From: Struthio camelus
Lineage: Eukaryota; Chordata; Aves; Struthioniformes; Struthionidae
Direction: 5' to 3'
Length of the DNA: 64,000 nucleotides
Assembly: GCF_040807025.1 (NCBI RefSeq)
Contig: NC_090968.1
Location: forward strand, 434,001-498,000
The position numbers were made by a program, and so were the translations under genes. Below, in pieces: positions 1 through 64,000 of the stretch. Each line of letters begins with the position of its first letter. Within the stretch, counting starts at the first letter, position 1. Below the pieces are notes generated by a model. The model was not told where the DNA came from. It ran no database searches and saw nothing but the letters and a program-made list of their open reading frames with translations.

Positions 1-2124
1 GCTCATGCTACGGCCTGACATAGGCTGGGAGCAGCACCATGAGGCTAAAGGGAGAGCAACCCATACGCCCCATCCTCAAGGACAAAAAGGATGAGGTCTG
101 CTATCCTTGCAGGTTTTTAAGGAACTGCTTGTTAACACCACATAAGACCCAAGTGCTTTGGAATTAAGTAAATCCTTGCTCAGGAACCAAAACAACCAAT
201 AGGCATGGCAGGGATTGAACTGCCAAGCCGGAAGGTCCAAATACATCGGCTCACTCAAGCAGCCTTGGAAGCGGATGCAGCAGCAGCCGCACTGCTGAGG
301 CTCTTGTGCATCCTGGTGCAATTCAGGGCATGCCCGCATCGTGACGGAGGAAGGATGAGCACTCTCACTGTCGGTTAGGTAACTGCCTTGCTCATAAGCA
401 TGTGAATTAATGAATCATCGAGTTAACAAATCAGTGAACTAGCTAATTAAGTAACTACAGAATTAATGACTTAGGCTAGTCTGCACAGAAAGGATTCACT
501 CTTTCTTTGCTTTTGGGTTTTTTTTTCTTTTTTACCTAATAAGCTCATAAGACTAAAGTTGGTTTCACAAAGTACGCTGTCCTGTAAATTTGAGAGATCA
601 CAACGTGACACACAGATCCGCCTTTTCCTGGGAGAGACCTACAACCAACACTCAGGGTAGCCCATGCTCATTGTGCTTTAAAGGCACCCAAGCCAGTATG
701 GTGATAAGAGACTCTGTACCTGACCAGATCATTTCGCAGTGGGCCCCAAGCATCACCACATTGATGTCTGCACTGACAGATGGGAAAGTGTTCGGAGAAA
801 AACCACGAGTCAGCTTTCAAGCACCATTAGATGTATGGGGCTCTCAGGTTATGAGGGACAACGCAGACAGATTCCTCATACGCACTGGCTGAGTAGGAAG
901 CGTCAACTCGGACAAAGAGGCCTTCTGACTATCATGTGAAAGTTGACGAGGACTGGAGCACGGCATCTGCTGGGGCTTTAACTGCAAGACTCCACACTGG
1001 ACCAAGTTAGTCATTTTGCAAGAAGGGATGCTGCTCCTGCCTCACAAGCAGAGCTTGTCATTTTGTACCACCCAACAGCCTTTCCTCAGATTCCAGGATC
1101 TACCCCAAAATAATTACAAAACTCATAGCTTTGCATAACAATGGCACAGACATGTGAAAAAAGTACTTGTCAACTACCACGTAAATAACAAACAGTGAAA
1201 AGAGGAAAAAAACCCAGCTCATGGGGACAATAGCAAATGTGTGCACATGACATTCTGACAAACTGCTGGCTAGAGAAGAAAATTGTTTGCCAGCAATCCA
1301 ATTACACCTGACCTCCCTGCAGGGGACAATTCAGGACACCTGCAACAGTTCCATGCCTTCAGCTTTCTAGAGAAGCTCCAGAGAAGACACGAACCTGATC
1401 TAAACAAGGGAACTTGGCTTGTCCCGAAAAGGTGCAATTTGCTTACTTGCTTTGGAAACTCTGCCATCATAAACAAACAAACAAAATACCATGCACACCC
1501 CCCCCAAACAGTTACAAAGGGATTATTTAAGAGTCTTGCCTAAAGTCTGCATTAATTTAAGACCAGGGCACCCAAAGGTGCACACAGAATTTGTCACTCA
1601 CCATTACTGCAAACAGCCAGAGACACTACAAAGGTCAGCCCGAGGAGAAGAGGGTTAAGTAACAATACCCACTCTTGACCAGAGAGACTGTTGTTCTGTC
1701 CTTCTTTACCAAACACTTGGTGCGTTAGAAGCTGTTTGATCACACAGGGCAAGACCCATTTTCTCCTCGTGATTCAGAAGGGAACAGGGGAGTCTTGGCT
1801 TTCCTAAAGCAGCCATAGCCAGGAAACACTGATGCACAGAAGGCAGAAGCAAGGAAACGTGAACCCCTGCTTAGCTAGCTCCGTCTCCAGCAGCAATGCA
1901 CACCTCGAGCAGAGGGTTTTGCTCTGTCTTTACCATTTGGGTTTAAGCAAGGGCCTGGGCGAAAGGAATTAAGGACATTTGTGTCGAGGAACATTGGAAA
2001 CAAAGGGAAGAAAACGGGCCCTAACCTGTAAAGGGTTTGAAAAAGTTCTTGATGCAAAGGAGAGCAACGGGCTTGAGCTGGCTTCAACCCACGTATTCCT
2101 TCCTGGCAACTGGGGAGGCCCAGC
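1..2124. other. Unassigned DNA, start of unit
   Basis: No recognised gene. It holds an AT-rich stretch near 400-470 with repeated aattaa/gttaac-like words, a T-rich run near 518-535, an (AAAC)n run near 1472-1484 and a C8 run near 1498-1505. An unrecognised 100-codon plus-strand frame (590-892) contains the segment VPDQIISQWAPSITTLMSAL. Same in units 2, 3 and 4 (20362-22485, 40729-42852, 61088-63211). Confidence 0.6.
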
Positions 2125-2313
2125 GTTGTGACAGTGAGCCCATGATAGTAATGGGTAAAGGGGATCACATTGGTGTTGTGATGGAACTGTATAATGCAAC
2201 TGCTAGAGTTTGTGAAGTGTACACTGGCATTGTGGTTTCAGACTGTTGCTGTATCGCTCTGCTAAATCAGACATCCCATGTAGCATCAAATACCTCGAAA
2301 GGAAACTGTTATG
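2125..2313 (+). repeat. Dispersed repeat, copy A, unit 1
   Basis: Homologous to copy B at 7800-7995. Shared landmarks in the same order: gcgttgtgac, cacattggt(g/a)ttgtgat, gaactgt, an attgtg block, gct(g)aatca, tgctaaatca, gtaacatca-like, cctc.aaa and gaaact. The two copies are diverged, so the element is older than the array. Family unknown; an LTR or short interspersed element are both possible. Confidence 0.6.
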
Positions 2314-2389
2314 GGGATGGGAGCTCTCACAGCTCCAGGCCTTTCTGCCCCTGTCGCGCTACAACACTGGCTGAAAGCACCACTCCGTT

Positions 2390-2720
2390 TCCCCCGGAGG
2401 GTGGCAAACAGCTCCCGCGCCCAGCTCAGGTTTCGGGGGCCAGTTCCCTTCCAGCGACTCCCACAGGGGAGCCCAGCAGAGCGGGGCCCAGCGGCAGCAG
2501 CCTTTCCTGGCGGAGGCTCCGCTGGAGGACAACTCCCACTGCCCCGGGGCCGGCCTCACGCTGCTGGGGCGAGGGCAGGAGCCGGAGCCGCCCGCGAGGC
2601 CGCGTGTGGAGAGAGCAGAGAGCTCGGAGCTGTGACGTGCGGGTCTGCGGGGGACCGGCCTCGGGCGGCGGTGGGGAGGGCAGTGGCACCTGGCGCTGCA
2701 GGGCCCCGGGCCTGGGCTGC
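2390..2720. promoter_or_regulatory. CpG island, unit 1
   Basis: GC-rich stretch with dense CpG (cccgcgaggccgcg, ctcgggcggcgg, tgtgacgtgcggg). A strong splice donor (gcccag|gtaatgag, after 2745) follows on the plus strand, so the island may be the promoter and first exon of a former or noncoding transcript directed at the fragment at 2800. No intact gene uses it in view. Confidence 0.45.
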
Positions 2721-2799
2721 TGAAGAGAAGGAAGGGGAGGCCCAGGTAATGAGAAGCTCCTGTGTGTCTTCGGCCTTGCGGCTGAGGAAGTAAAAGGGG

Positions 2800-3105
2800 G
2801 TGATTGTGGTGGTGCTGATGAGGGGCCTGGAGGACATCCCCTGTCTGGAGATGGTCAGCAAGAGCATGCTGGTGCTGGCCAAAGTGGTGCATGAGCTGAA
2901 GGGCAAGGACCTGGGCTCCGCTTTCAGGGACACTGCCAAGTGCAAAGACCATGGCGGGGCACGGTGGCCCTCACGAGTCCACAACGTCTGCTCGATTCAC
3001 ACGCCGTCTCCAGGCTCGGACGCCTTTGCCTGCTCAACACCCTGGGACAAGACAACCCCAGGCCTTGGAAAGTACACCGAGTACACCAAAGGAAGGAAAC
3101 CCTGA
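2800..3105 (+). pseudogene. MROH-like exon fragment, unit 1
   Basis: The open frame contains GLEDIPCLEMVSKSMLVLAK followed by VVHELKGKDLGSAFRDTAK. This recalls a helical repeat of maestro HEAT-like (MROH) proteins, a family with many copies in birds. After about position 2941 the resemblance stops and the frame continues as low-complexity sequence into a C tract. There is no start codon with a clear upstream exon and no intact neighbouring exon, so it reads as a decayed fragment. It lies just beyond the 3' end of the TMCO5-like gene. Family call from memory of the repeat pattern only. Confidence 0.35.
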
Positions 3106-3106
3106 A

Positions 3107-3121
3107 CCCCCCCCCCCCCCC
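3107..3121 (+). repeat. C15 homopolymer
   Basis: Pure C15 in unit 1. Units 2 and 3 have C5-T-C7 near 23467 and 43834. This accounts for the 2-bp length difference. Confidence 0.9.
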
Positions 3122-3319
3122 AACAACCACCTCAAATCACCCCCTGCCCACAAAGGCCACCATGTGAAAAGACTCTGGGGCTCCAAGGGCCTCTCTCTGC
3201 GTGCGCACAAAGCACACTCGACCACACCAAAGTGGTCTCCGAGGACGTCTTATTCAGCGGGCACCCAGCAGGCTCCACGAGGCCGAGACCTACGGAGACG
3301 CGGGGCTGGGCGACGGCTG

Positions 3320-5762
3320 TCAGGAAGGCAGCAGCCCCTCACTCCACAGGCTCAGGGTCTCTCCCAGCACGTACACCAGGTGAGCATAGCTCTGCTCGGG
3401 TAGCAGCCACAGCAGCAGCCGGTAGAGGAACTCCTGGTCATACTGGGAAGCGTAGAGCACCACGGCGCCCAGCACGAAGCCGACGACCAGCTCCAGGCAG
3501 ATGAAGAGCATGCAGAGTCTCCTGGGGCACAGCGCAGGCATGGGAGAGGGCGCAGGGCAGGTGCATCCCAACCCTCTCCTGCCCTGCACCCACCGCTGGG
3601 CCACGCGGGCCCCTTCAGCCAGCCCCACCGTCTGCACCCCCACCCCCCAACACGCACTGCTCGTCGCTCCCTGGTGGAGGGTTGCAGAAGAGCCGCCAGG
3701 AGCCCAGAAAGAAGAAAGCTTGGCGCAAGGAATGCGCTGCCGGGGCGTGATTCCCAGCTGCAAAGCCCACAGCCAGTGAGCAGGACCCGCCAGGCCGCAG
3801 CCCGCTCGCTGCACAGCAGCCCACACGTGAGCCGCAGGGCATCAGGGACCCCAGGGGCAACTCACTGCAGCCACGTAGCCATGCCGCATCTCTTTGCCAG
3901 CTCCTGCCTCTCCTGCAGGCCAACACAGAGCGGGGACACTTGTGGGACCCACACGGGGCTGCATGGCGCCCCTCTCCCCAGCAAGACCCTGCCAGCTCCT
4001 GCAGGCTTTGGCGCTGCCTCTCCCCCTTACCAGCTTCGCTTCCAGCAGCTCCGGCAGCACAGACCCCTCCACCTCGGGCTCCTGCTCCATCTGCTGCTTG
4101 CTGCAGGCAACAGAGCTTGCTTGGGCGAGCGCTGACCTCCATGGCCGCTGGGGCTGCCCGTCGCAACATACTGCTGCCCCACAGCAGCCATCGGGGTCTC
4201 CTGTCCCGCCACATGCTGCACAGAGCCCCTGCATCCCCTCCCCGAGGCCGGCACTGGCGTCCTCTGGCCCTCCAGCTGCAGCACAGAGCTGCTGCATGCG
4301 CCTGTGGGGAGAGGTGTCCCCGGTGCCCACTCACTAGGCATTTTCCAGCTCCAGCTCCTCCACTTCCTCTCGAAGTGGCCTCAGTTCAGCCCGCAGCACC
4401 TGGCAGACAGAAGGGGCCCGGTCCACGTGCCTGCTGCAGCCTCCTCCAAAGCCCCCGGCCAGTGGGCGCCCACCACCCTCTGCCCTCGCCCCTTTGGCAC
4501 TACCTTTGCCCGCTTCTCCTGCTCACGCAGCTGCTGCTTCAGCTGGGCCGAGCGCTGCTGCTCCTGCAACTCACAGGGCACACAATGCAATGCCACCAGT
4601 GGAGCTGGCAGCTGGGCAGCCCCCTCCGCCTCCAGCCCCAGGGCTCGGCCCCCTCGCAACTGCCCCGCCCCAGGGCCCCGGGAGGGCTGGCCACAGACAA
4701 GGCCAGCCAAAGGGGAGTCACGGCCCCTGGGGCTAGTGCCCTCCCCAGGCCCACTGCTGGCCAAGGCTGAGGGGTGCACCGATGCCAGCACTGGCACCCC
4801 ACCAGCACTGGCACCCCACTGCTGCCAGCGCAGCTCTCCCTCTCCCCTGTACCTCGTCGAGCTCCTGCAGCCTCATGCGCCTCTCCTCCTTGGCTGCCTG
4901 CAAGCGCTCCTGCGGCAGAGGAGAGGAAGAGGAGCACTCAGCAGGGCACGGGCTCTCTCCTGTGAGATCTGCTCCTGGCAGCGGGTCCCAGGCCCTCCGC
5001 CCTCCCGGCTGCCCTCGGCCCCCAGCTCCCACTCTGCCACTGTCCCTCGCACGCGCCTCCCCTCTGTACCCAGCTCTGCAGGCACCAGCGGGCAGCCAGA
5101 GGCCCCTGGCTCCGCTCACCTCCAGCTGGGGCAGCAGCTCCTCCATCACCTGCAGCTCCTGCTGGCTGCTGCAGCACCGCTGCCTGAGGGCACAGTTCTC
5201 CCGCGCCAGCTCCTGGGCAGCAGCCTGCAGCTCCTGCTTCTCCTCCTGCTGCATGGGGAAGGGGGCAGAGCAGGGCTTCAGAGCCAAGCAGAGGGGGCAC
5301 AGAGCAGGCCTTCAGCGGGGGCACCACCAGCCCCGCGCACCAAGGCCACTCCACGCCTACCAGGCACCGCAGCAGCTCCTTGCAATGGCCCCTCTCCTCC
5401 TTGCTTTCATTCAGCTGCTCCAGCAGCCTGCTGTGCTCGGCCAGCAGCCCTTCCAGCTCCTCCGCCCCTCTCCTGCGCCTCTGCTGCCTGCAGCAACGGG
5501 GTGCCATCACACCACACGCACCGGCACAGGCCCTCCCACCTGCCTGCCCTTCCTCCGCCAACCTCCGCACACCTCCCCAGCCTCCTGCATTCCCGCGCCC
5601 AGCCACGTCGCGATCACCCCACCTGGCCACCTGCTTGGTCAGGCGGGCGTTTGTGCCCTGCAGCGCCTCATAGTCCTTCTCCAGCGCCTCCAGGAGATTC
5701 AGCAGCTCCTGCTTCTGCGCCTGTACCCGCTGCAGGGCCAGCTTCACATCCGCCACCTCCAT
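3320..5762 (-). CDS. TMCO5-like coiled-coil membrane protein, copy 1 (9 coding exons, 298 aa)
   Basis: Coding exons on the minus strand, in order: 5762-5623, 5487-5361, 5248-5120, 4909-4853, 4563-4504, 4399-4335, 4100-4031, 3912-3866, 3521-3320. Each junction has GT..AG ends and matching phase, and the joined frame is 897 nt with a single terminal TGA. The start MEVADVKLAL is the first in-frame ATG after a plausible 5'UTR acceptor. Residues 1 to about 230 are rich in E, Q, L, K and R with heptad-like leucines, as in a long coiled coil. About residues 235-255 (CMLFICLELVVGFVLGAVVL) form one membrane segment, followed by a short tail ending in EGLLPS. The length, coiled-coil plus C-terminal anchor layout and the tail resemble my recollection of mammalian TMCO5A/B (about 288 aa), which is reported in spermatid manchettes. 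The family call is tentative. The gene model is strong because nine phases agree. Confidence 0.72.
4784..4818 (+). repeat. Short tandem duplication in a TMCO5-like intron
   Basis: ccagcactggcacccca occurs twice in tandem inside the intron between exons 4 and 5. Also present in units 2 and 3 (about 25143 and 45510). Confidence 0.8.
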
Positions 5763-6112
5763 GGCTTGGGCTGTGCGCTGGGAGGCAGCACGGTGTGAGG
5801 GGGCTACAGCCCGTGTGCTCGGGCACACAGGGACGCTCACGTGGTCACTACCCTTCCCGGCATATACACACATAAACACTCGTGCACACTTACAGACCCA
5901 TATTGCGTGTGCTCCAAACGATGTCCTTGTGCACAGCTGGAAGCAGCCACCCTGCTCCCCCACAGTCCACGTGTGCCAGGCACACATGTACAGCCCTGGC
6001 CCACGGGCAGGCACACTCGGGCTGTGGCGCTGGCAGTTCCCCGAGTCCCACCGCCCCCACCGCCCGGCCCGACCCGGTCCAGCCCGTGCTGGACGTCCCC
6101 CACGCAGCTCAC

Positions 6113-6362
6113 CTCCACTCTGCAAGCACGCCCCGTGGGAGCCCAGCCGCCTCTGCCAGGCAGGGCACGAGGAGGCACAGGCAGCGGTGCCTCTGGCGAG
6201 CGGTACCAAGGTCTGCTGCCAGCCCCAGAGCACGAGCCCAGCACCAGCCCCAAAAGCCTTGCTCGACCCCCCGCGCCTCACACCCGAGCTTGGCACGAGT
6301 CTGACCACCAGGCAGCTGGGCGAGACTCTGCAGCCGCCCGAGGCAATGCAGCAGCGCTGCGC
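6113..6362 (-). other. Candidate noncoding first exon of the TMCO5-like gene
   Basis: On the minus strand a strong donor (GTGGAG|GTGAGC, exon end 6113) lies upstream of an acceptor (CTGCCTCCCAG|CGCAC, exon start 5777), which sits 15 nt before the ATG at 5762. Splicing these gives a 5'UTR exon joined to the ATG exon. The 5' boundary near 6362 is a guess. Equivalent regions are 26472-26721 and 46839-47088. An upstream open frame starts at 6387 and would overlap the main start out of frame. Confidence 0.4.
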
Positions 6363-6410
6363 TGTCACAAGAGGTTGGGGCCATCACAAAGGGCCGTCAC
6401 AAAGGGCCCC
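6363..6410 (-). promoter_or_regulatory. Triple TCACAA motif upstream of TMCO5-like copy 1
   Basis: The plus strand holds three TCACAA motifs at 6365-6370, 6384-6389 and 6397-6402. The last two lie in a near-perfect 13-bp tandem (ccatcacaaaggg / ccgtcacaaaggg). The position just upstream of the candidate first exon suggests a proximal promoter element. No TATA box is evident. Promoter role is inferred from position only. Confidence 0.35.
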
Positions 6411-7799
6411 CGAGAGCGCTGGCCAGGGGTGGCCAGTGCCCCCCGGCAGGCACCCGCCTCTTGTGCTCCCCCAGCCTCCTCCCCGGGCACGGAGGCCTAA
6501 AGCCCAGGGCTGGAGATGGGAGGAGAAAGCCCTGGGGAAGCCCTTCATCCCCACAGCCTCTGCTGCAAGATGCCAGCTGGCCTGGCCCAAAAGGGCTCTG
6601 CGCTAGAGCCCAACCACTGGGGACCCTGTGGCAGCAGGGGCAGACAGGCAGACGCCTTTCCCAATGCATGGCAGACTCATTTCCCGCCATGGGGATGGTG
6701 GCCTTGCTTGGCCCACAGCTCCCAAGCCGTTCCTCTGAAACAGAGGCCAGCCTCCAGTCCCCTTTGCACGGAGAGCAAGCCAGCTTTCTGTGCAACAGTT
6801 GTGGCCAGTCACTCCCTGTGTCCTCTGAGCCGGCCTGCCTTGTTGGGGTCTAGCGGTCAGTGGCACAGGGCGCCGGCAGGAGCCAGCAGGGCAGCAGGGA
6901 CAGGCGTCGCACCTGGAGCCCACACGTTGCCCAGAGCACAGCCCGGTAGGGGCATGCTTAGACTCATGTCATGGCTCTTCACTAATGGGCGGGTATCAGA
7001 TCTACTGGCAGAATGATGAACACTAACAGAAGCGCAGATCTACTAGCAGAATTGCTAACAAGGCCATCTCAAGTACAAGGAGATCCCATAGGGGCCCCTG
7101 CACTGTGTGCTTCCCAGGGAGATAGCTTGGAGTGGGCCATAGCTGATGCATCGCATGGCGGGTATGCTGCCTCTCTCTCACATCTTGCATGCAGATCAGA
7201 GACACTGCAGGTTCAGTTCTCGGACGTGCTCCCCAACCAACAGCATACCGAGAAAGAGCACGCCAACACCCACTCCCCCTATCAGCTAGCTGAGAGAGAG
7301 GAGCTTCCCGCTGATGCCAGCTACCCACAGCTATTGTCTCGCGGGAAGCTCAGGGGCTGTGCTCCAGCGGGCAGACCCCTCACGCGCTATAATCACCCTT
7401 TTCGCAGTGTTGTCCTGGAGCGATCAGTCCAGCCTTGCTGATCCGCTGCGCTTTGGGCCTGGGAATCTGCGGGGGACAGATCACTAAGCCTCAGGGAGAC
7501 AAGCTGTGCCTGTGCTGTTTGGCAGCCACCCTTAGTTTTCATGCTTAACGCCCGAGCTCTCCTTCCTCCTAGCCGTAAGCTTATTGAAGCCAGCCTGGAC
7601 ACCAGTTTGTCCACAGCACAGGCTCAGGTGACAGGTATTTTTTTGCAGTAAGCGGTCATTCCTGCGAGAGCCTACTGTGACTGACCAACAACGCCTACAA
7701 TGGGAGAAGGCTCAGAGGGCAAGGTGCCCCATGAATCGCAAGGACAGTGTAGGATGCAGCTCACTAACCGCAGCTGTTGCACACAGACCTGACCAGCGT
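6411..7799. other. Unassigned DNA between the TMCO5-like promoter and repeat B
   Basis: No gene recognised. Near 6996-7055 there is an imperfect direct repeat (agatctactggcagaat and agatctactagcagaat, about 36 bp apart). A 142-codon plus-strand frame (7013-7441) has no recognised domain. Equivalent regions are 26770-28158 and 47137-48525. Confidence 0.55.
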
Positions 7800-7995
7800 T
7801 GTGACGCTGAGCGTGTCTGAGACTGGAAATGGCAACCACATTGGTATTGTGATTGGTATTGTGCTTGAACTGTCTAGCTAGATGTTGTTCACACTTGTAC
7901 TGTGATACACTTGAATTGTGCTCTCAGGGCATTGCTGAATCATTGTGCTAAATCAACACCCCCTGTAACATCAGATTCCCTCAAAAGAAACTTTT
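7800..7995 (+). repeat. Dispersed repeat, copy B, unit 1
   Basis: Second member of the diverged pair, directly upstream of the CR1 end. It lacks the 7-bp gtgtata present in unit 2. Confidence 0.6.
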
Positions 7996-8000
7996 GAGGC

Positions 8001-8202
8001 CTGTGAGGGTGACGGAGCACTGGCAGAGGTTGCCCGGAGAGCTTGTGGAGTCTCCTTCGCTGGAGATTTTCAAAACCGGCCTGGACGCGGTCCTGGGCAA
8101 CATGCTCTAGAGGACCCGGCTTGAGCAGGGGGGTTGGACTAGATGATCTCCAGAGGTCCCTTCCAGGCTTGGCCATTGCGTGCTTCTGTGTGATTCTGTG
8201 AA
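8001..8202 (+). mobile_element. CR1 LINE 3' end, unit 1
   Basis: Contains the diagnostic run of CR1 3' ends: a cactggcagaggttgccc segment, ggagtctcc, ttcaaaaccggcctggacgc, tgctctag, ggggttggactagatgatct, ccagaggtccc and a terminal tgattctgtg. It is 5'-truncated, as is usual for CR1. It identifies a sauropsid, most likely avian, genome. Confidence 0.9.
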
Positions 8203-8374
8203 CCTGACAGCCACTGCAGGCAAGGCTGACACTGATTATCACACGGCCAGCTGATGCTCTGGCAGGGTTTGGGTCTCATAGTTGCTCTATCAGAGCAAGC
8301 AGGCGCTTGCACGCGTCTTGGCCCACCGCTGTCCCTTCAGAAGTTCAAAGGTGTTGGTGTGTGCAGGGCGGATT

Positions 8375-8406
8375 CCCCTCCTCCCTCCCTCCCTCCCTCC
8401 ACCTCC
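8375..8406 (+). repeat. (CTCC)n microsatellite
   Basis: About five CTCC repeats with flanking degenerate copies. Same length in the other units, at 28742-28773 and 49101-49132. Confidence 0.9.
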
Positions 8407-8889
8407 ACTGATTACAGTGGGAGCTTAGACAAGGAGCTGGCATGCAGACAGCCATTTTGTGCTCACCAAAACTGGGGACAGGGGAATCCCCCCTCCTGAG
8501 AGTGTGTGGAGTGCACGGGATGGAACGGAATCCCGCTTCATGCCAGGGCCTTCTCAATGTATTGTTTACCTCCTCTAAATCAGTCCCTGAAGCATGAGGA
8601 AAGTAACTCCCTTCTTGGCCCTGTCTAGGAGTCCTGTCTTCTCATGAGATGGGAATAGGGCCTTCTAGCGGGACATTTCCGGCTGTAAGGGTGAGGCGGG
8701 GGCAAGGCCTGGACTCCTGGCAGGGACAGATACACTGTTTCTATCACTGTGTCAGAGCGGGCTTCTCTGTAATAAATGGGGATTTCCTCAGTGCAGTGCT
8801 TGAAGGTTGGGCTCTTCTTCCAAAGGTGGAGTCAACAATGCGCTCAAGGGCTTTCAGCCTGAAGGGGCCTGTTGCTTTTTGGGGGTTCT

Positions 8890-8917
8890 CCATGGGCTCG
8901 AGGCGATGAGCCCATGG
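8890..8917. repeat. Perfect 10-bp inverted repeat
   Basis: ccatgggctc, an 8-bp spacer, then gagcccatgg. Also at 29257-29284 and 49616-49643. Intergenic; function unknown. Confidence 0.7.
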
Positions 8918-10339
8918 GATGATGTGTTAGGGAAGGAGGGCTGGATTCAGCTCTCGCTTGTGGGTAGCCAGTGCTCCTGGAGGTGGTGAATGGTCAAGTG
9001 GTATCTCCCAAACGACAGGGCTGGAGACTGATTCCCATCCTTCTCCAAGGGAGTATGGAGCCACCAGGAGAGCACAGGGCATCTCCAAGGGCACCACGTG
9101 CCTCGGGGTGGGCAGTGAATGGAGCTTCACAAAATCAGGTGGAGTCATCCAAAGGTAAAGGCCTAAACCAATGAATGTGCAGGCCAGTGAGAGCCCTACA
9201 GTCCCACGAGAGGCAGTGGGGACCCCGGAGGCCCAGGGAAAGGAGCCTGGAGAGCGGTTCACGTCACCTTCAATGAAAAGCCATGGGCTTGATCTAGGGC
9301 CACACCTGAACACAGCCTGAGCTGTTTGAAGTGCCCTGCGATTGCTCAGAGCATCGTCCATGGCCACCTACCCTTTGGTAGGGGGTTGTCTGTCCCGCGG
9401 GGTCTGCTTCCCACCCTGACCACCACGGCCAGGGCGGAGTCACCCTGTGGCCCCAGGGCACCACGGTCCGCTCCCACTGCAGAGCAGCACCCCCAGCTCG
9501 GGTCGCTACACAGGGGAAGGCTCCAGGAATGGCCGGGCAGGCCAGCGCCGATGCACTCACCTGGGGAAAGGCTCTTTGGGCAGCAGGAACGTCCCTGGAG
9601 AGCAGCAAAGCAACAACCGTGTGCTTGCAAGGAGGAATAAGCGAGCGAGAAGTCTGTTTCTCTGTGTGTCAGCTAAGGGCAGGCTGGTGTGTCCTGGGGG
9701 CAGCAGGAGCTGCCTGAGGAGCCGCAGGGCAGGGACTCTGGCGCTGTCCTGGAGGGAGGCGCTGGCACGAGGGAGCTGCAGGCCGTCTGGGGGCAGGGAA
9801 TCTCCTTGACACAAGAACAAGGGGCACAGAGTGTCACTGTCCTCTGCTTCCTTGTGTCCCTGGGGCCAGGGACAGTTTGGAAGCTGACGAGGTAGCTGAC
9901 ACCCTGCCCCTACCCACCCCTTCCCCCGTGCTGCTGTGCTTTCAAGGGGGCTTGGGCTGTGGTGTGAGTGCTACTGTGCCGCAGAAACACGGGCCTCGAC
10001 CCCTCGCTGCAGCCCCCACTGCCCTCCTGCCCCTGCCCTGCCGCCCTGCCGTCCTCCCCACGCTGCCCTGCCTCCTGACTCCTCTCCCCACACCGCAGGG
10101 CCCGGCAGTGCAGCAGGCGCAGGCACAGCCCCGCAGCTGCTGCCTGGTCCCCGGCCCTCCCCGCCTCCCTCCACACCAGGGCTCCAGCCCCAGCCAGGCA
10201 GCAGGTCCGGCCTCTCCCCCCAGCTCCTGGCCTGGCTCCTCCCGCACTCCCACCCCCTGGCAGGGAGCTGGAGCTGCCCTGGTCCTGGGCAACTGGCCAG
10301 CACCAGGGCTGGCATAGGGCCCGGGTGGACAGGCAGTGC

Positions 10340-10359
10340 GGGGGGGCAGTGGGGCAGGG
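10340..10359 (+). other. Potential G-quadruplex motif
   Basis: A G7 run, cagt, G4, ca, then G3, enough for four G-triplets on the plus strand. Equivalent positions are near 30707 and 51066. The preceding 400 bp are strongly C-rich on this strand. Confidence 0.4.
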
Positions 10360-11068: not shown

Positions 11069-11212
11069 GAAATGCTAGAGAGGCTGTGGAGTCTCCCTCA
11101 CTGGAGGTATTCAAAACCCAACAGGGCCCGGCCCTGAGCAACCTGCTCTAGCTGACCCTGACCATCTCCAGAGGTCCCTTCCACCCTCCGCCATTCCGTG
11201 GTTCCGTGACCC
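11069..11212 (+). mobile_element. Older CR1 LINE 3' fragment, unit 1
   Basis: A more diverged CR1 tail: gagaggctgtggagtctccc, ggaggtattcaaaaccc, gcaacctgctctag, gaccatctccagaggtcccttcc, and a degenerate attccgtggttccgtg end. It lies about 630 bp upstream of the TOPORS-like start codon. Confidence 0.82.
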
Positions 11213-28361: not shown

Positions 28362-28366
28362 GAGGC

Positions 28367-48721: not shown

Positions 48722-48726
48722 GAGGC

Positions 48727-52569: not shown

Positions 52570-55251
52570 ATGGAGGTAGGTGCCACCCACCCTCGCCCCT
52601 CACCCCACGAGCGGCAACACAGGCAGAGGGAAGGGGCTTGCTCTTCTTGCGCTGAGAGGGGCCATCGCACTGCCGCCAACGCCAAAAGGTTCGTCACCTC
52701 TCCACCAATCCTTTGAAAAGGGTGAGGGTCAGAGCTGCCAGGGGCAGGGCAGGGCTTGTGGACTTCTGCTGCAATTTGGCTGGGCGGCAGGGCACATACT
52801 CCTGCTGGGCTCACTTGGCTGACAGGCATGCTGTGCATCTGTGGCCAGTGCCGTGTGTGTAGCAAGAGGCTGCAGGGGTCTCCAGGAGTGCTGAGAGACC
52901 TCGTTGCCTCTTCCTCGGAGTGCACTTGCAGCTGTGGTGAGCTGCACTTGGAACTATGCTGCAGGCTGGGCTGTGCAAGGAAGCAGAGGTGGTCAGTGGG
53001 GTTTTGGGAAGTGCTGAGTCCCAAGCAGCAAGGGCATGCTTTTGAAGAGGGCAAGGAGAAAGGGCAGGGTGCCCAAGAATGGCAAGGATGCCCACGTTCC
53101 CCGGGGGCAGCATGTTGGTTCCTGAGCTTTCTGGCAGCTCCCAGTTCGTAAAGGAAGAGTTGCTCTGAGAACTGTCTGAATGCATGCTCCCCCAGCCTCC
53201 TGTGCTCTGCTGATGCGGCTGGTACTGGTGCAAAGAGGGACCTCTTCCTTTCCGGAGGAAGGAGGGAGGCAGATGTCGGCAATTCCTAGGCAGTTCCTGA
53301 GCCGGGACATTTTTCAATGTCTTTCCTTCCTCTCTTGCTGAGTTAGGAGGAGACTGACCCATGACACCTCCCTGTCATGGGAGGGCACCGAGGCCTTCCT
53401 GGGTGATAGGCACCAGTGCCTGTGTTCTTTCTTCTCATCCTGAAAGCAGCCTCGTGTGGGTTTCTGTGCCAATGGCTCTTCTGCACCGCTGCCTGCACCA
53501 TAGTCCGCCCTCCACACTGCCCTCCGCAGTCTTCCCAGGAAGGGCAATGATCTCGGCCTCTCTTTCTGCAGCGGAGTGCAGCATCAGCAGCTGAGGCACC
53601 TGCAACGGATGGCAGCTCCTTACCCTCAGCTCCCCCCAGCCCTCTGCAGCAGACAACACCAAGACCTGCAGCTCCAGACGCTACGTGTCCCATCTGCCTG
53701 GACACCTTGGACAACGTGGCCTACATAAAACCTTGCTTCCATAAGTTTTGCTTTAGTTGTGTGTTCCGGTGGTCGAAAACAAAGGCCGAATGCCCGCTGT
53801 GCAAGCAGGCTTTCCGATCAATTCTGCACACAGTGGTGGCAGAAGATGACTACCAGGAGCATGTCATCAGGCCCCCCGAAGATGGTTCTGTTGCCAGCCA
53901 TCAGCAACGGAGAGCTCCTCACCGCCCTGCCATCCGGAGGCGCCGTCACCCTGCAGCTCACCCGCAGCAGCCTTCCCCTTCTCCTCAGATGCGACCCTCT
54001 CCGCAGAACAGCAGCAGGCTGGAGGGGACCCGGAGGCACACCAGGCAGAGGCAGAGAGAGGGAGGGCTGCTGGAGCCACGCCAGAGGCTGTCCCCACAGA
54101 GGCAGGCCAGGGCTGACAGGAGACCTCAGGGGCATGCGGCAGCGACGGAGGAGGAGACGCTGAACTTCCGCCGCTCTCTGTACCGCACAGGGATGCGCGT
54201 GCAAAGGGCTCCCGCTGGCGGCCACCCCCAGGACATCTCGGCAGACTTCTTCTGCCGCAGCCCGGCCAGCATTCAGAGACTGCTGCCCTGGCTGCAGCGG
54301 GAACTGAGAGTCCTCTTTGGAGTCCACCAGACATTGCTAACTGTCACGGAGCTCATTGTCCTGACAAACCTGAGGAGGTACGACCTGGACAGTCAGGCCT
54401 TTGCTGAGGACTTAGAGCTGCTTCTGCTGAGTCGCACCGAGCAGTTCCTCCACGAGCTCATCAGCTTTGCCCGCTGCTCGTGCAGCATGGAGACCTACGA
54501 CCAGCAGGCCATGTATGGCTACCGTGCTCCCAGCCGGCACGAAGGAAGCCCCTCAGCCTCATTGAGCCTGGCAGCTGCTGCAGGGACGGCCCGGACTCCT
54601 GTGCCAGCCCAGAGCCCATCCCGAGCTAGTAGCCCTGGGCTCACGGAGCTTCCTGGCCCCTCGTACGCCATCCCCCACGAGCTTGCCGCAGCCACACAGT
54701 CTGCCCAGCAGCCGCGGCAAAGCTCTGATGATGGGGCAGCTCAAGCAGGAGGAGAAGCCTGGAGAGAGTTGCTGGCTCCTGCCGACCCCCAGGACAGTGA
54801 CTCCTCGTCAGACAGTTGTGTCCTTGTAGGGTCCTGGAAGCCCTGGGCAGAGGGAAGCCCTGAATGCATTGTGCTCTCCTCAGACTCAGAGCACTCAGCC
54901 GCGGCAGAGGAAAAGGAAGCTGGGCAGAATGAGCAGCCGCTCCATGGGTCCAGCCGGAGCTGCAGCAAAGCCAGCGGGAGCTGCTTGCCCAGCTCCGCCA
55001 TGCCGAAGGAAACTGGCTGGAGCTGCCGCAGCTGCTGCCCCACTGCCCCCAGGGAGGAGACAGAGCCCCGGCAGGGGCAGGTGGAGGATGTGGCTGGTTG
55101 CTCTGTGCAGGGCTGCAGCCAGATCCCCTTTGCTCCTGGCAGCGGCAGGCAATGCTCACCCGGGAGTCCCCGGCTGCCCAGAAAGAGGAGGGCAGGCAGC
55201 CCCGAGGCCTGTACCCAGCCCAGCAAGAGGCAGGCATGGCCTCAGCGTTAG
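52570..55251 (+). CDS. TOPORS-like RING E3 ligase, copy 3 (A217, Q385, Q393)
   Basis: Exon 1 is 52570-52575 and exon 2 is 53572-55251. The frame and RING are intact. Compared with the other copies, residue 217 is Ala, and two Arg codons CGA have become CAA (R385Q and R393Q). Both lie in the linker between the central domain and the SUMO-interaction-like motifs, and both changes are CpG-to-CpA transitions. They sit eight residues apart outside recognised domains, so function is probably kept. Confidence 0.85.
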
Positions 55252-57125
55252 GAAGGAGAGAGGAAGATGGCCAGGAAGCAGAGACGAGAGCAGCCAGAGA
55301 AGCCTGTGGCAATGGCGGCTAGGTAAGAAGACCGAAAGAAGTGGAAAACGGGCTGGACTGCTGCCCTCCAAGGGTTGTCTTCAGTGGTACAAGGTCTGGC
55401 AGTCAGCTGACTGTGAGTAGTGGCCTCCTTGGGAGAAGGTAGCAATGCTAGGGCAAAGACTGGTTCAGGTGTTCTTAATGAGGCGATGGAGGGCTCTCGG
55501 GGCAAGCTTGGAGTAGGAGTTGGACTAGACGCTGGCAGATGCAGGGCCCACACGGATGAGGAAGTCTGTCAGTCCCCCCAGCAGTTATTCTAGGAGATGG
55601 CTGTCTGAAAGCACCTTTGGCAGGACACTGCGGGGCCAGGTTTGTATAAAGACCAGTGCAATCCAGCTGGTTGCCGTGACAAATGCTGAGGAGAGTGAAG
55701 GGGTCCCTCGTGACTCACTTGCCTTCTGTCACCCTCTGCTCTCCCTTGGCAGGCAAGGAAGTGGTGGGTTTTCCGCACAGACCTGAGGTGCACCGAGCCC
55801 CTCTCCTTGTGTGTGTGTGGGCCTCCCACCAAAATGCCTGAGCTCCCCTGCAGCTGTTCCCCAAATGGCCCTGTCTGGGCTGGAGAACGGGGAGGCATAA
55901 AACTCCCCAGCATACACTTCTGGGGAGGAACCCTCTCAGCTTCCCCTCTGCTGGAAAAGTGGCTTGCCTCCGTGTTTCTGCTCCTTTCGCTCTCACCCCA
56001 CCTGCTCTAGGGGCTTTTAATCTCCTTGCGTGCCTTACTTCTTCCCCTTTGCGTTGCTGGCGTGCAGTGCTAACCACGGTGTTGGAGCGGGTGCCACCTT
56101 CCAGGTAAGAAGCTGGCCCTGGGGTTTTTCACCAGTGCTGCTGCTGGCTAAGGAGCTCGTCACCTGAACGCACTTAAGGCACCTGGGATGTGAGCTGCTG
56201 GAGAGCTGCCAGAGCTCAGGATGCAAGAAGACTGGCTTGAATTGTCTAGCTCTCCTCAGCTTGGAGGCAGAGCTAGCCCTGCCAGGACATGGCTTCCAGG
56301 CTGACAACCCTGCTTTGAAGCTTCTTTGAAGCAGGAGCAAAATCATTTCTGGGAGGTGTGTCACATTCCGCATGTCCGATGGCTGCTGAGGACCGGGCTG
56401 CAGCAGTGGTGAGCGTAGCTGTGGCTGTGGGGGTTGGCAGGGCTGAGCAATGCAGCCTCTGGCCTCTCTCCCCAGGCCCCCTGCAATGAGGTGAGGAACT
56501 GCTCACTGAGGTGAGCCCATCTCCATGCTTGTGCCTCAGGGGGCATGTTATTCCCAGCTCACAGAGGCCTTCAGCTTTCCCACATGTTAACTTAGGAGTT
56601 AACATCTCTGCCTGAAAGCAAACCCTGGGACTGCAACCTTGGCTAGGTTTTGGTAGGAACAACGGGAACTCCCAGCTCGATACAAAGGGAGGCACTCCCA
56701 GCGCAGCACCCTAAGCCCAGGCTGACGGAGGCAGGCTCTCTTGTGCTCCTGCTTTCTGAGCCAGGGACTCTGGGGTCCTTGGCTGCACAAAGGCACAGCT
56801 CCAGCTGAAGTGGTGCCGGTTAGACTCGCCAACCCAGCAGCCACTGTGTGCTCCGGCTTCCCTAAAACACAGGCGGCATCTCCCCTTCCTCCTCTCGCAG
56901 CTCTTCCAGAGAACACTTGTGCGCAACTAGCTTTCAGGACTGGTCTCTGATGTCCTATGGCTCCCTGTCAGCGTGAGTCAGAGAGGATTTGGGGCAAACT
57001 CCCGTCCTCAGGCTTTTCCCTTAGCCAGCACCAGGCAACACCATGCCGAGATGAGATTTCCCTCACTTGTCTATCGAGATATATTTCTCTGGAGTCACGA
57101 GAGTGATAACAGGAGTGCAGTGAGA

Positions 57126-57467
57126 AATTAAATAATAACACAAGCTTGTTCTTCCAGGAAAAAAGTATTGCCTACTCACCCGCAGGATTCCGCAGAGGCG
57201 CCAAAACCTCGTCCAGCTGAGATGCTGGGGAAGCTTCACCTACAGGCACACCTGCAATCAGAGAGGAGATTTGCTTCCCTTCTATACCATGACATACGTC
57301 TTTTGAGCCAGCATCGGGATTACAGAGGGGGAAAAGAAACGCTTAAAAAGAGACAAAGCTTGTCCTTGCCAGCAAAAAAAGTCTGACTCCTTACCAGTGG
57401 CGTCCTGCAGAGGCTCCCTTACCTCTCCCAGCTGAGCAGCTGGGTACGCAGTGTCCACGGGCACATC
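57126..57467 (-). repeat. Duplicated exon-like block, unit 3
   Basis: Same pair of 72-nt blocks, at 57466-57395 and 57251-57180, with the same splice-signal states. Confidence 0.5.
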
Positions 57468-58470
57468 GGTAAGCAGACACGGAGCAGCAGAACTGCGCTG
57501 GGCCGACAGTGAACACCCAGGGACTGGCTGAGGCCCAGAGGGGAGAAATGACCGTCCCCACACTTGCCTGCCTGCAGTGCGCTGGAGCTGGGAGAGAACC
57601 CAGGAGTTTGGACTCCCAGTCAGCCCTTCCCCTGCTCTACGCCAATGACCCCTGCCTTTCCGCTTCCCACACGTTCCGAGTCCCAGAGCACCTCGCCAGA
57701 GCAGGAGAGACTTCCAGTCTCTACCATTTCTCACTGCTGAGGACTTGCCTTTGCAATCTTGAGATCACGCCTAATTCAAGAAACTTTATTTTGAAGTGCC
57801 AAAATTCCTTCTGGAAACAACCACACAAAGCTCTGGAGCCCTCAGGACACATCAGCACATTAGCCCCACTGAGCTTCCTTTCTTTTGCTTGAACCAAAAG
57901 AACTAACTGCAGCGGCAGGTTATTCTTTCTTAGGCAAAGCTGCAGCACAAGCACCTCACCCGTGTTTCTCCCAGTGCCTTATAGGCAGCAGAGGGATGCT
58001 GAAGCAGGAGAATAAGGAGCTGGAGAATAAGTTCCATGTTTGCAGAGTGCTCTCCAGTGGCTCTCCCTCTCCCTGCCACGGGGCTCCTCAGCCCTTCTCT
58101 TCACCAGGGAAGCTCAGCTCAGGGGCTGTGTGGTGTCTCGTAAATGCTCGCCCATCTCTCACAGACTTTTCAGCACTCTTGCCGGCAACAAGGGACTCAC
58201 TAGAACAGCAGAGGCGGCGCATCCACAGCAACAGCTCTACACCTCCCCCCTTCCCCACTCTTGGCACTGAATCGGGAAAGCATCCGAGTTCCTCTGCTCA
58301 ACAGAGGCAAGGGCAGCCCCCCTCGCAACCTGGCCAAATGGTCCTTCCCAGAGACACGGCTGGCCGCAGGGGCACCTCCCTCCCAGGGCTCCCCTCCACC
58401 TCCACGGCACGATGGAGAACACAGCCTGCAAACGGATCCCACCGCTCCTGCCAAGGCTCTTTTGAGAATG

Positions 58471-58788
58471 TAGGGTAGTTACAGTGATAGGATGCTGTTA
58501 GGATAGCTAGCGTAGAGTTGGTTATCATAGTCTTAGCGTGTAGTTACTTACAGTATTCTTAGAGCAGTTGGAGTATCCTTAGGTCATTGTAATTTCTCTA
58601 AGGGTAGGAGACAGCTAGTCTGCCTGGCTATACTTAGGGCAGTTATTATAGTTATCATATAGTTACCATTAGCATTATTACTTATAGTTAGAGTTAGTTA
58701 GAGTTACTGTTCGTAGTTATCCTTAGGCCATAGTAATTCTTGCTGGAGGGTAGTTAATGTTAGAGGAGAGTATTAGGATGGTTTCAGA
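58471..58788 (+). repeat. Degenerate GTTA/TTAG-rich repeat, unit 3
   Basis: Same block as unit 1 with no length change. Confidence 0.75.
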
Positions 58789-61700
58789 TAGCTAGCCTGG
58801 CAGGAGGCTAGCTCCCCCACTCCCCACCAGCTGGGGCACAGCAAGCTCATGGGCTTGCACTTTAGGTGCAGTAGCTAACTCCTAAGAGAGGAACTGTCTG
58901 CACAGGCAGGACAAGAAGAAAAAAGCTTAATCCCTACGTTGCAGCCGATAGAGGAAAATCGGAGTGCTGGCTGCTTTTTGGAAGAAGGCGTCAGAAACAT
59001 AATTAACACGAGAGTTCCTCAGCAGGAGGTGATCACAGTGTTACCCTCACAGGGCATGTCTCCCCACAGCTGCTGCGGCGTTGTTTCCCACACCATCTTC
59101 CTGCAGAAGGAAGACCCTTGACTCGCACCCGAAAAACATGCCACTGAAAAGGAATCCTAGGAGAAAGCAGCAGAAATACGCTTAAGCATCCCAGCTGCCA
59201 AGTCTTTCAGGTGACAAAGTTCATCTGAGGAACACCCCATACCTGCCACTTTGGGGGCAGCATGGTTTTGCCCACCCCCCTCCTGAATGGGGGCAAGACA
59301 GGACAACCCAGCAAAACCACATCGCCTTCACTAACAACAGCTTGCAAGCCCCTGAGGAAAAGCTGCCCCTCAAAACAACTCCTGTTTTAACAGGTCACAG
59401 GGTTAAACACCTTCCTCCCCTAAAGACATTACAAAGCCATTGGCTGCCGTCCCTTGCCCAAGAGGAACTGCACAGCTTCTGCTGGCAAGCAGGTATCAGA
59501 AATCCAGGCAGACAACACAGCTCTGCCCTGTGAGCTTCCAGCCCTGATCCCACCCACCAAACATGGGGGAGCTACAAACCCCCCCGGGCCCTGCCCCGGA
59601 CACTTCACAGCTACAGAACTGCCCCACTTCTCTCATTTCGGCAAGGCATCTGTTACTGTTCAGGAGTTCCTCTCACCCGTGTGAAATGACACGGGTTTGT
59701 CTCTGGAGACACAATCTGCCTACTTGCCCAGAAAAAACCCACAGCCGCTTCCATTCAGTCACTGTGGAATTTCCAAATGAATGCAAAACAGAGGGAGAAC
59801 TTTCCTCTCTCTCGGTTTCCCAGCCCACTTGCCCTCTCAGCTGGTACATCAAGAACAGGACGAGATGCCTGTGGGCTTTCTCTAAGAGCTTAGGCTCAGT
59901 AGTACAGATTAAGGCCTCATGAGGAGGAGGTCCAGTTCCCTTTTCCGGGCGGAACAACCCACTCCGGAACAGAGATGTCTTTGTAACGCCTCCTTTGTAG
60001 CGCCGCCTTCTGATGTCTTTGCGCCTTCCCTTCTTCCGGCAGAGAGTGGCTGCTTAAAACAAAACCAAAGCAAAAAAGCACCCCACTCATTCATCTCCCT
60101 GTTTTGGGCCAAAAGAGCTGCAGAAGGATCAAAGGACACCAAATGGCTGCGCAATAAAGCATCAGAGGATATTCACTGCAGGGGAAGTAAAGCATCTAGG
60201 GGGCCAAAACACCCAAACCTTAACTTTACATGCACAAATGACAGGCTGTGACCTAGTGGTTATTGGCCAGGGAGACCCAGCCAGTCAAGCAGAGCGCTCC
60301 ATGAAAGCACGTGCTCCTTGCTTTGCCGAGGTCAAAAGGAGGAAAGCAAATGCAAGAAGAAAAGGGACAGAGAATCAGGCAAGGAACCGCATTAGGCCCT
60401 TCCACAGATTCACGGTGTGCCTGAGTGGGTGCCCCTCTGCAAGCACAAATACAGGAAAGGCCCTTGGGCTACTGCCTCTGGCAGGGGAAGCTCCCAGGCC
60501 ACAGCCTGCTGGAAGAATGCTCGGAGGAAAAAAAAAGAAAACATCAGTATATAGTGCCCTCTTCTGATCCTCCTTCCTAGACAGCTGCTGTTCAACACTG
60601 CCCAAGAGAGTGCCAGTGTGAACCAACAGCTCGTTTGACCCAGTGGACCCCGCTGCTCCTGCTCTGGAAAGCTGTTGGTGTAATCGTCTTCCCCACCTCG
60701 GCATCAATGGCAAAGACATCTAAGGAAGCCAGGTTAGCTAGAGATTTGTGTTACGCCAGCTAACACATGCAGAAATGCTTGCTAACGCTGCAGAGCTGCA
60801 ATAATTTGGAAGCTCTAACAGTGGGAGGTGCCAGGAGGAGAGTTACAAAGCTCTTGGAAGAACGCAATGCCCTCCGTGGACAGCACGCTTCCGCTTCAGC
60901 TGTCAGGCTGCTACTAGGAAGCCCCTCCCCGACAGTCTGCCCTCAGGTCAAAAGCCTAGCTTTACTGATTGCTCTCTAAAGGCAGTTCCTTTGTGCCAGG
61001 GGCCACCACGTACTTCACAGCAAAGCTTTGGCTCTGAATATACTGGGGAGTTGGCACAACCCAGGCATCCAAGACCCTGCAAGGAGGGCTCATGCTACGG
61101 CCTGACATAGGCTGGGAGCAGCACCATGAGGCTAAAGGGAGAGCAACCCATACGCCCCATCCTCAAGGACAAAAAGGATGAGGTCTGCTATCCTTGCAGG
61201 TTTTTAAGGAACTGCTTGTTAACACCACATAAGACCCAAGTGCTTTGGAATTAAGTAAATCCTTGCTCAGGAACCAAAACAACCAATAGGCATGGCAGGG
61301 ATTGAACTGCCAAGCCGGAAGGTCCAAATACATCGGCTCACTCAAGCAGCCTTGGAAGCGGATGCAGCAGCAGCCGCACTGCTGAGGCTCTTGTGCATCC
61401 CGGTGCAATTCAGGGCATGCCCGCATCGTGACGGAGGAAGGATGAGCACTCTCACTGTCGGTTAGGTAACTGCCTTGCTCATAAGCATGTGAATTAATGA
61501 ATCATCGAGTTAACAAATCAGTGAACTAGCTAATTAAGTAACTACAGAATTAATGACTTAGGCTAGTCTGCACAGAAAGGATTCACTCTTTCTTTGCTTT
61601 TGGGTTTTTTTTTCTTTTTTACCTAATAAGCTCATAAGACTAAAGTTGGTTTCACAAAGTACGCTGTCCTGTAAATTTGAGAGATCACAACGTGACACAC

Positions 61701-63211
61701 AGATCCGCCTTTTCCTGGGAGAGACCTACAACCAACACTCAGGGTAGCCCATGCTCATTGTGCTTTAAAGGCACCCAAGCCAGTATGGTGATAAGAGACT
61801 CTGTACCTGACCAGATCATTTCGCAGTGGGCCCCAAGCATCACCACATTGATGTCTGCACTGACAGATGGGAAAGTGTTCGGAGAAAAACCACGAGTCAG
61901 CTTTCAAGCACCATTAGATGTATGGGGCTCTCAGGTTATGAGGGACAACGCAGACAGATTCCTCATACGCACTGGCTGAGTAGGAAGCGTCAACTCGGAC
62001 AAAGAGGCCTTCTGACTATCATGTGAAAGTTGACGAGGACTGGAGCACGGCATCTGCTGGGGCTTTAACTGCAAGACTCCACACTGGACCAAGTTAGTCA
62101 TTTTGCAAGAAGGGATGCTGCTCCTGCCTCACAAGCAGAGCTTGTCATTTTGTACCACCCAACAGCCTTTCCTCAGATTCCAGGATCTACCCCAAAATAA
62201 TTACAAAACTCATAGCTTTGCATAACAATGGCACAGACATGTGAAAAAAGTACTTGTCAACTACCACGTAAATAACAAACAGTGAAAAGAGGAAAAAAAC
62301 CCAGCTCATGGGGACAATAGCAAATGTGTGCACATGACATTCTGACAAACTGCTGGCTAGAGAAGAAAATTGTTTGCCAGCAATCCAATTACACCTGACC
62401 TCCCTGCAGGGGACAATTCAGGACACCTGCAACAGTTCCATGCCTTCAGCTTTCTAGAGAAGCTCCAGAGAAGACACGAACCTGATCTAAACAAGGGAAC
62501 TTGGCTTGTCCCGAAAAGGTGCAATTTGCTTACTTGCTTTGGAAACTCTGCCATCATAAACAAACAAACAAAATACCATACACACCCCCCCCAAACAGTT
62601 ACAAAGGGATTATTTAAGAGTCTTGCCTAAAGTCTGCATTAATTTAAGACCAGGGCACCCAAAGGTGCACACAGAATTTGTCACTCACCATTACTGCAAA
62701 CAGCCAGAGACACTACAAAGGTCAGCCCGAGGAGAAGAGGGTTAAGTAACAATACCCACTCTTGACCAGAGAGACTGTTGTTCTGTCCTTCTTTACCAAA
62801 CACTTGGTGCGTTAGAAGCTGTTTGATCACACAGGGCAAGACCCATTTTCTCCTCGTGATTCAGAAGGGAACAGGGGAGTCTTGGCTTTCCTAAAGCAGC
62901 CATAGCCTGGAAACACTGATGCACAGAAGGCAGAAGCAAGGAAACGTGAACCCCTGCTTAGCTAGCTCCGTCTCCAGCAGCAATGCACACCTCGAGCAGA
63001 GGGTTTTGCTCTGTCTTTACCATTTGGGTTTAAGCAAGGGCCTGGGCGAAAGGAATTAAGGACATTTGTGTCGAGGAACATTGGAAACAAAGGGAAGAAA
63101 ATGGGCCCTAACCTGTAAAGGGTTTGAAAAAGTTCTTGATGCAAAGGAGAGCAACGGGCTTGAGCTGGCTTCAACCCACGTATTCCTTCCTGGCGACTGG
63201 GGAGGCCCAGC

Positions 63212-63400
63212 GTTGTGACAGTGAGCCCATGATAGTAATGGGTAAAGGGGATCACATTGGTGTTGTGATGGAACTGTATAATGCAACTGCTAGAGTTTGT
63301 GAAGTGTACACTGGCATTGTGGTTTCAGACTGTTGCTGTATCGCTCTGCTAAATCAGACATCCCATGTAGCATCAAATACCTCGAAAGGAAACTGTTATG
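63212..63400 (+). repeat. Dispersed repeat, copy A, unit 4
   Basis: Same element as 2125-2313. Confidence 0.6.
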
Positions 63401-63476
63401 GGGATGGGAGCTCTCACAGCTCCAGGCCTTTCTGCCCCTGTCGCGCTACAACACTGGCTGAAAGCACCACTCCGTT

Positions 63477-63807
63477 TCCCCCGGAGGGTGGCAAACAGCT
63501 CCCGCGCCCAGCTCAGGTTTCGGGGGCCAGTTCCCTTCCAGCGACTCCCACAGGGGAGCCCAGCAGAGCGGGGCCCAGTGGCAGCAGCCTTTCCTGGCGG
63601 AGGCTCCGCTGGAGGACAACTCCCACTGCCCCGGGGCCGGCCTCACACTGCTGGGGCGAGGGCAGGAGCCGGAGCCGCCCGCGAGGCCGCGTGTGGAGAG
63701 AGCAGAGAGCTCGGAGCTGTGACGTGCGGGTCTGCGGGGGACCGGCCTCGGGCGGCGGTGGGGAGGGCAGTGGCACCTGGCGCTGCAGGGCCCCGGGCCT
63801 GGGCTGC
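63477..63807. promoter_or_regulatory. CpG island, unit 4
   Basis: Same island. It has an extra CpG loss (cctcacactg near 63647) besides cagtggcagc. Confidence 0.45.
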
Positions 63808-63886
63808 TGAAGAGAAGGAAGGGGAGGCCCAGGTAATGAGAAGCTCCTGTGTGTCTTCGGCCTTGCGGCTGAGGAAGTAAAAGGGG

Positions 63887-64000
63887 GTGATTGTGGTGGT
63901 GCTGATGAGGGGCCTGGAGGACATCCCCTGTCTGGAGATGGTCAGCAAGAGCATGCTGGTGCTGGCCAAAGTGGTGCATGAGCTGAAGGGCAAGGACCTG
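63887..64000 (+). pseudogene. MROH-like exon fragment, unit 4 (cut by window end)
   Basis: First 38 codons of the same frame, truncated by the end of the window within the VVHELKGKDL part. Confidence 0.35.

Follow-up and report, generated by a model that had tools for sequence, protein, structure and literature searches.

A 64,000-bp stretch of the Struthio camelus genome (the window; C27:434001-498000) lies wholly within a tandem array whose units each carry two genes, a TOPORS-like RING gene and a TMCO5/TMEM191-like gene for a coiled-coil membrane protein. C27 denotes contig NC_090968.1, which is 7,997,582 bp long in an assembly of 1,451,902,618 bases and 262 contigs. With a probability of roughly 0.6, this is an ampliconic two-gene array on an autosomal microchromosome, kept uniform beside satellite DNA, that would be expressed in the germline and selected for dosage.

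In a self-comparison of the window, exact 32-mers reappear 20,359-20,367 bp further on, and 62,407 of the 63,969 32-mer positions occur again at least once. Three full units and a partial fourth are thereby delimited (Table 1). The full units are 99.80-99.87% identical and differ by 48 substitutions (27, 40, and 29 in pairwise alignments) and by three indels, no more; of these, one of 2 bp affects a C tract (3107-3108), and those of 7 and 1 bp lie at 7890 and 8214, respectively. The partial fourth unit departs from the first at 7 of 2,913 positions. A preliminary description of the window had proposed a tandem array of ~20.36-kb units with almost no divergence, the lengths of which were explained by three small indels, and had seen neither array edge. 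The alignment reproduces the units, their near identity, and the three indels, and the contig places both edges outside the window, as the array block extends from base 1 of C27 to ~C27:550,798 and comprises at least 28 units.

A TMCO5-like probe (best 40 of 61 candidates scored) detects 27 full copies on C27, all in a single orientation, between 2306 and 521,236, and one partial inverted copy at C27:550,211-550,798, at the right edge of the array, where the last unit is inverted. A head-to-head turn occurs somewhere within C27:531,450-540,001. As C27 opens partway through a unit, the copies counted are a minimum, and the true array is longer. Unit spacings fall into three classes (~20.36, ~19.46, and ~18.66 kb), of which the window harbors only the longest, and the length variants come in runs along the contig. 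One short-type unit lacks a ~0.9-kb segment located between the two genes, and the two broken RING copies sit in the two units that precede 18.66-kb steps. The identity of at least 99.8% among the window units, taken from the assembly sequence, would also be expected if the assembly had duplicated one or a few true units. However, this is made highly improbable by unit-specific variants, namely the three length classes in runs, the 0.9-kb indel, and the two RING deletions, as well as by the inverted end copy and by the 23 distinct sequences found among 26 open RING copies. The near-identical, head-to-tail, gene-bearing units, with their runs of shared length variants, inverted terminal copy, and adjoining satellite, agree with the ampliconic interpretation already offered in the preliminary description.

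The RING gene has the same 566-codon open frame in each full unit of the window, with a complete C3HC4 zinc-ligand pattern. Among solved structures, the closest in sequence is that of the equine herpesvirus 1 RING (E-value of 1.1e-9). Over 551 residues, it is 45% identical to a 1,005-codon frame on C41, which we take to be TOPORS, with a ratio of nonsynonymous to synonymous divergence (dN/dS) of 0.35 at a dS of 1.28. The RING, the TOPORS core, and a motif that is presumably SUMO-interaction-like are retained, and the frame stops near the start of the arginine/serine (RS)-rich half of TOPORS. Because this long C-terminal half is absent, the gene is referred to as TOPORS-like and not as TOPORS. 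A non-coding segment that precedes the RING exon is homologous to the equivalent position in front of the full-length TOPORS of C41 (Table 1), which points to an origin by DNA-level duplication of TOPORS and not by retroposition.

C27 carries 28 detected RING copies, 26 of which have an open frame of 561-566 codons, while two are broken by deletions. Relative to the copies on C1, the C27 gene shows a dN/dS of 0.54-0.60 with the frames still open. In the C41 and C9 relatives, the matching exon contains an ATG, and the C1 relatives have one nearer to the RING, but none is present in the C27 copies. The start must therefore come from an upstream exon, or no protein containing the RING is made. 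Of note, the TOPORS-exon ATG has apparently been lost in the C27 copies though 26 of 28 frames stay open.

The second gene comprises nine exons and encodes a protein of 298 amino acids. A single hydrophobic segment lies near residues 230-258 (hydropathy peak of 2.7 at residue 236), and residues 1-230 show a heptad-like pattern with 50% E, K, R, or Q. By these simple hydropathy and heptad measures, the protein combines a coiled coil with a C-terminal membrane segment, as in the TMCO5 family (PF14992), and its alignment to that model spans positions 4-280 of 280. The gene is tentatively regarded as nearest to TMCO5/TMEM191, hence “TMCO5-like”.

Ten of the at least 27 C27 copies of this gene, chosen as the best-listed in the probe search or as lying in the window, were examined, and all 10 are open with GT/AG at every splice site. 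The nine exon lengths are identical in one copy each from C27, C41, and C33, with no indel in 897 coding bases, whereas the introns carry many indels between arrays. The coding sequence has been under constraint between the C27 and C41 arrays, with a dN of 0.088, a dS of 0.233, and a dN/dS of 0.38 (Fisher p = 6e-6); intron divergence, at 0.21, is close to dS. Between C33 and C41, dN/dS is 0.64 (p = 0.02). The two intact-looking genes per unit of the preliminary description thus stand in full for the coiled-coil gene (three of three window units as well as the ten copies) and in part for the RING gene, most copies of which are open, two of which are broken, and which has no ATG ahead of the RING.

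C27 is an autosomal microchromosome with telomere repeats at its right end, and the array occupies one end of its assembled sequence. Dmrt1 and Nipped-B_C genes are sex-linked in birds. Genome-wide, the Dmrt1 model matches on C41 only (2 of 2 matches) and the Nipped-B_C model on C40 and C41 only (8 of 8), with none on C27. On the basis of these matches and the known sex linkage, C41 (89.9 Mb) is read as the Z and C40 (70.4 Mb) as the W chromosome, so that C27 is neither, and the sex-chromosome setting hinted at by the male/female depth check in the preliminary description does not hold. The human TSPY array, which is Y-linked, also consists of a ~20-kb gene-bearing tandem unit and could suggest a sex-chromosome ampliconic region of that kind here. 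This is scarcely credible, as the sex-linked models mark C41 and C40 and the genes are TOPORS-like and TMCO5-like. Identity with TSPY itself, suggested by unit size, is ruled out by gene content and location.

From ~C27:550,798, the array is adjoined by a GC-rich satellite of 31-bp units (297 copies in a 10-kb piece, 73% matches), within which three sub-motifs recur 3,253 bp apart. Followed along C27 by 500-bp samples, it is present in 13 of 13 samples between 565 and 950 kb, and a further sample, from 2.0 Mb, matches it with 71%; no match is seen at 1.0, 1.1, 1.25, 3, 5, or 6.5 Mb. The GC content of C27 is 0.41-0.48 in samples at 3, 4, 5, and 6.5 Mb. Microchromosomal location and a satellite neighbor, as expected of avian heterochromatic ampliconic arrays, are both observed, and the array may be heterochromatic and methylated.

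On average, any two of 26 C27 loci of ~4.6 kb differ by 10 bases. Neighboring copies are slightly more alike than distant ones (Mantel r = 0.17, p = 0.03), with distance explaining little; one adjacent pair is identical, and another is a single difference apart. This pattern fits exchange and conversion across the array together with recent block duplication, which may both have operated. Mutation in the array is driven by CpG: 36 of 54 C>T/G>A polymorphisms occur at CpG, which makes up 10.5% of C+G sites (p = 8e-23), and 14 polymorphic sites are of other kinds. Such dominance of CpG transitions would follow from germline methylation of the array, which may exist. It is hypothesized that a truncated TOPORS paralogue and a TMCO5/TMEM191-like membrane protein came to form one unit, that this unit was multiplied by unequal exchange, and that exchange and gene conversion would maintain the near identity of its copies beside satellite DNA.

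Both families form further arrays in the genome. For the TOPORS-like genes, the counts are lower bounds (best 80 of 133 candidates scored). On C1, at least 10 near-complete copies occupy 7.99-8.04 Mb, spaced at a basic step of 4.7 kb, and there are at least 3 at 22-23 Mb, at least 4 near 139 Mb, and at least 2 with a stop at 134 Mb. C9 has at least 25 matches, of which 21 lie within 3.16-3.33 Mb, for the most part at intervals of 8.3 kb; at least 2 lie on C20, and broken pieces are found at two places on C41. The separate arrays at C1:7.99-8.04 Mb, C1:139.65 Mb, and C9:3.16-3.33 Mb have frames of 624, 508, and 359 codons, respectively, and an ATG precedes the RING in the one copy read from each. 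A C9 unit also holds a reverse-transcriptase frame, presumably of the CR1 type. Among the TMCO5-like last exons listed (best 132 of 396 candidates), at least 27 are on C27, at least 18 on C41 (mostly 7.86 kb apart), at least 3 on C33, at least 4 on C47 (including 3 shorter matches), and at least 3 on C167. Larger steps separate TMCO5-like copies on C167 (63.9 kb), on C47 (42-61 kb), and in one C33 pair (64 kb), and two copies on different contigs (L050 and L051) share 99% identity across 6.0 kb. A lone 312-codon open frame at C5:17374958-17375770, aligned to TMCO5 model positions 7-280 with a below-cut-off score of 25.1 bits, is perhaps a retrocopy or an unamplified TMCO5-like relative.

Several results weigh against a germline array under dosage selection. 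The 566-codon RING frame contains no in-frame ATG before the RING, and comparison with the TOPORS region for a 5′ exon with a start codon returns only non-coding homology. The 26 open RING copies show no purifying signal, with 21 nonsynonymous and 4 synonymous changes (p = 0.19) for an expected nonsynonymous share of 71%, CpG-weighted sites included; nor do the 10 coiled-coil copies within the C27 array, where 4 variable sites are nonsynonymous and one is synonymous (p = 1.0). Between C27 and C33, dN/dS of the coiled-coil gene is 0.70 (p = 0.07), and one splice donor of the C33 copy is GG. The 298-residue protein misses the cut-offs of both family models, scoring 20.4 bits with TMCO5 (E-value of 3.6e-4, cut-off of 32.2) and 16.8 bits with TMEM191C (E-value of 0.008, cut-off of 32.7), and the C41 relative reaches 12.8 bits with TMCO5 (E-value of 0.07) with no TMEM191C match at a limit of 0.1. 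Across the genome, neither model yields a match above cut-off (best TMEM191C E-value of 0.43). Because two of the 14 control genomes, both bacterial, also give sub-threshold matches to the TMCO5 model, the weak scores may stem from the coiled coil alone, and the family name is tentative. Finally, the centromere of C27 is not located, and its left end is unassembled.

Part of this evidence is what would be expected from the main rival, a neutral macrosatellite, in which unequal exchange amplified a unit that held two genes by chance, copy number is unselected, and the RING copies are decaying passengers. The lack of a purifying signal in either gene (21:4 and 4:1), the broken state of 2 of 28 RING copies, the RING exon without a start codon, and the dominance of CpG changes all favor this reading. 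However, both families have undergone further amplification on other chromosomes, the coiled-coil frame and exon lengths are kept in three arrays, and the RING frames are open despite their divergence from the C1 copies, such that neutrality is a possible but rather unlikely explanation. TOPORS is a broadly expressed dual ubiquitin/SUMO ligase, and with the complete RING pattern, this would also allow amplification for dosage in a somatic ligase role, e.g., in stress or immune response. Two indirect arguments render the somatic role very unlikely. The co-amplified partner resembles a spermatid protein, as in mouse the Tmco5 mRNA occurs in spermatids, both round and elongating, and its protein localizes to the manchette (PMC6687282), and the setting matches that of the testis amplicons of chicken (PMC9974502).

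For the ampliconic array favored here, these analogies suggest that the unit is probably expressed in the germline, more specifically in the male germline, where it would have a role, and that a high dosage of both proteins is probably selected for. A more far-reaching proposal is that two germline genes are engaged in a copy-number contest between chromosomes, with TOPORS-like ligases lacking the RS tail, multiplied on several autosomes, and a membrane protein of the spermatid type, multiplied on autosomal contigs and the Z chromosome, being joined in one unit on C27. This is doubtful at present. If true, it would be the pattern expected for post-meiotic drive and its suppression.

Other features of the unit include a block upstream of the TMCO5-like gene that is a possible promoter candidate and a dispersed repeat (Table 1). 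In 27 Pfam frame searches (some frames twice), only RING models scored above cut-off, with many further frames of at least 90 codons not searched, and Rfam gave 0 matches on the window at the gathering threshold.

Table 1. Features of the window, in positions of the 64,000-bp stretch.
Feature	Position	Strand	Details
Array unit 1	1..20361	.	20,361 bp; 32-mer repeats and unit alignment
Array unit 2	20362..40728	.	20,367 bp; 32-mer repeats and unit alignment
Array unit 3	40729..61087	.	20,359 bp; 32-mer repeats and unit alignment
Array unit 4, partial	61088..64000	.	Unit starts and alignment
TOPORS-like RING gene, main exon, unit 1	12825..14525	+	566-codon stop-to-stop frame; likely splice acceptor 12845/12846
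TOPORS-like RING gene, unit 2	33192..34892	+	Same 566-codon open frame
TOPORS-like RING gene, unit 3	53551..55251	+	Same 566-codon open frame
Non-coding block upstream of RING exon	12564..12643	+	71% over 80 bp, E-value of 1e-8, to corresponding site in front of full-length TOPORS of C41
TMCO5/TMEM191-like gene, unit 1	3320..5762	-	Nine exons: 5762-5623, 5487-5361, 5248-5120, 4909-4853, 4563-4504, 4399-4335, 4100-4031, 3912-3866, 3521-3320; 298 aa; exon model, Pfam, hydropathy
TMCO5/TMEM191-like gene, unit 2	23679..26121	-	Open 298-aa frame
TMCO5/TMEM191-like gene, unit 3	44046..46488	-	Open 298-aa frame
Block upstream of TMCO5-like gene	6082..6550	.	Kept in C33 and C167 copies (71-72%), within 79% alignment to C41 unit; possible promoter
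Dispersed repeat	7985..8202	.	Also present in C1 and C9 array units; presumably CR1-like
Segment of ~0.9 kb	8696..9597	.	Missing from one short-type unit read, C27:400001-407000

Compared with its relatives, the C27 RING gene shares with TOPORS the RING, the core, the SUMO-interaction-like motif, and the upstream homology, but is multicopy and lacks both the RS-rich half and an ATG at the matching place. The coiled-coil gene resembles the TMCO5/TMEM191C families in its coiled-coil-like protein with a C-terminal membrane segment, but differs in scoring below the curated cut-offs and in being amplified in arrays. Among the listed titles and abstract beginnings of the open-licence literature, none concerns amplification of TOPORS-like or TMCO5-like genes in birds, and a few of the listed bird papers mention topors in the text. 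The word has 0 occurrences in the available portions of the papers on the blue tit germline-restricted chromosome (PMC10172847) and on gene loss from dot chromosomes (PMC12954441), and TOPORS is likewise unnamed (0 occurrences) in the chicken genome text as far as accessible (PMC9974502).

The chicken genome offers two systems for comparison. The HINT1W array of the chicken W chromosome (5,648-bp unit, 52 copies; PMC9974502) is also tandem and gene-bearing, but is sex-linked with one gene in a smaller unit. The dot chromosomes of chicken harbor satellite-rich pericentromeric heterochromatin with multicopy genes, which are testis-biased on 7 of 10 (PMC9974502). The C27 array looks like the same kind of amplicon with different genes, as both combine many gene copies, satellite-rich DNA, and a small chromosome. 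In contrast to the GC-rich dot chromosomes, C27 is 8 Mb long with the moderate GC content given above, its satellite unit is 31 bp and not the 41 bp of the chicken CNM repeat, and testis-biased expression, described for the chicken amplicons, is a prediction for the C27 array. The occurrence of gene amplicons in the heterochromatin of microchromosomes, known from chicken, is apparently extended to another bird genome and a different gene pair, both families of which have been amplified several times over in one genome, and together once. With this, one can address directly whether selection for dosage or conflict drives arrays of this kind, or whether they are side products of exchange within satellite-rich DNA.

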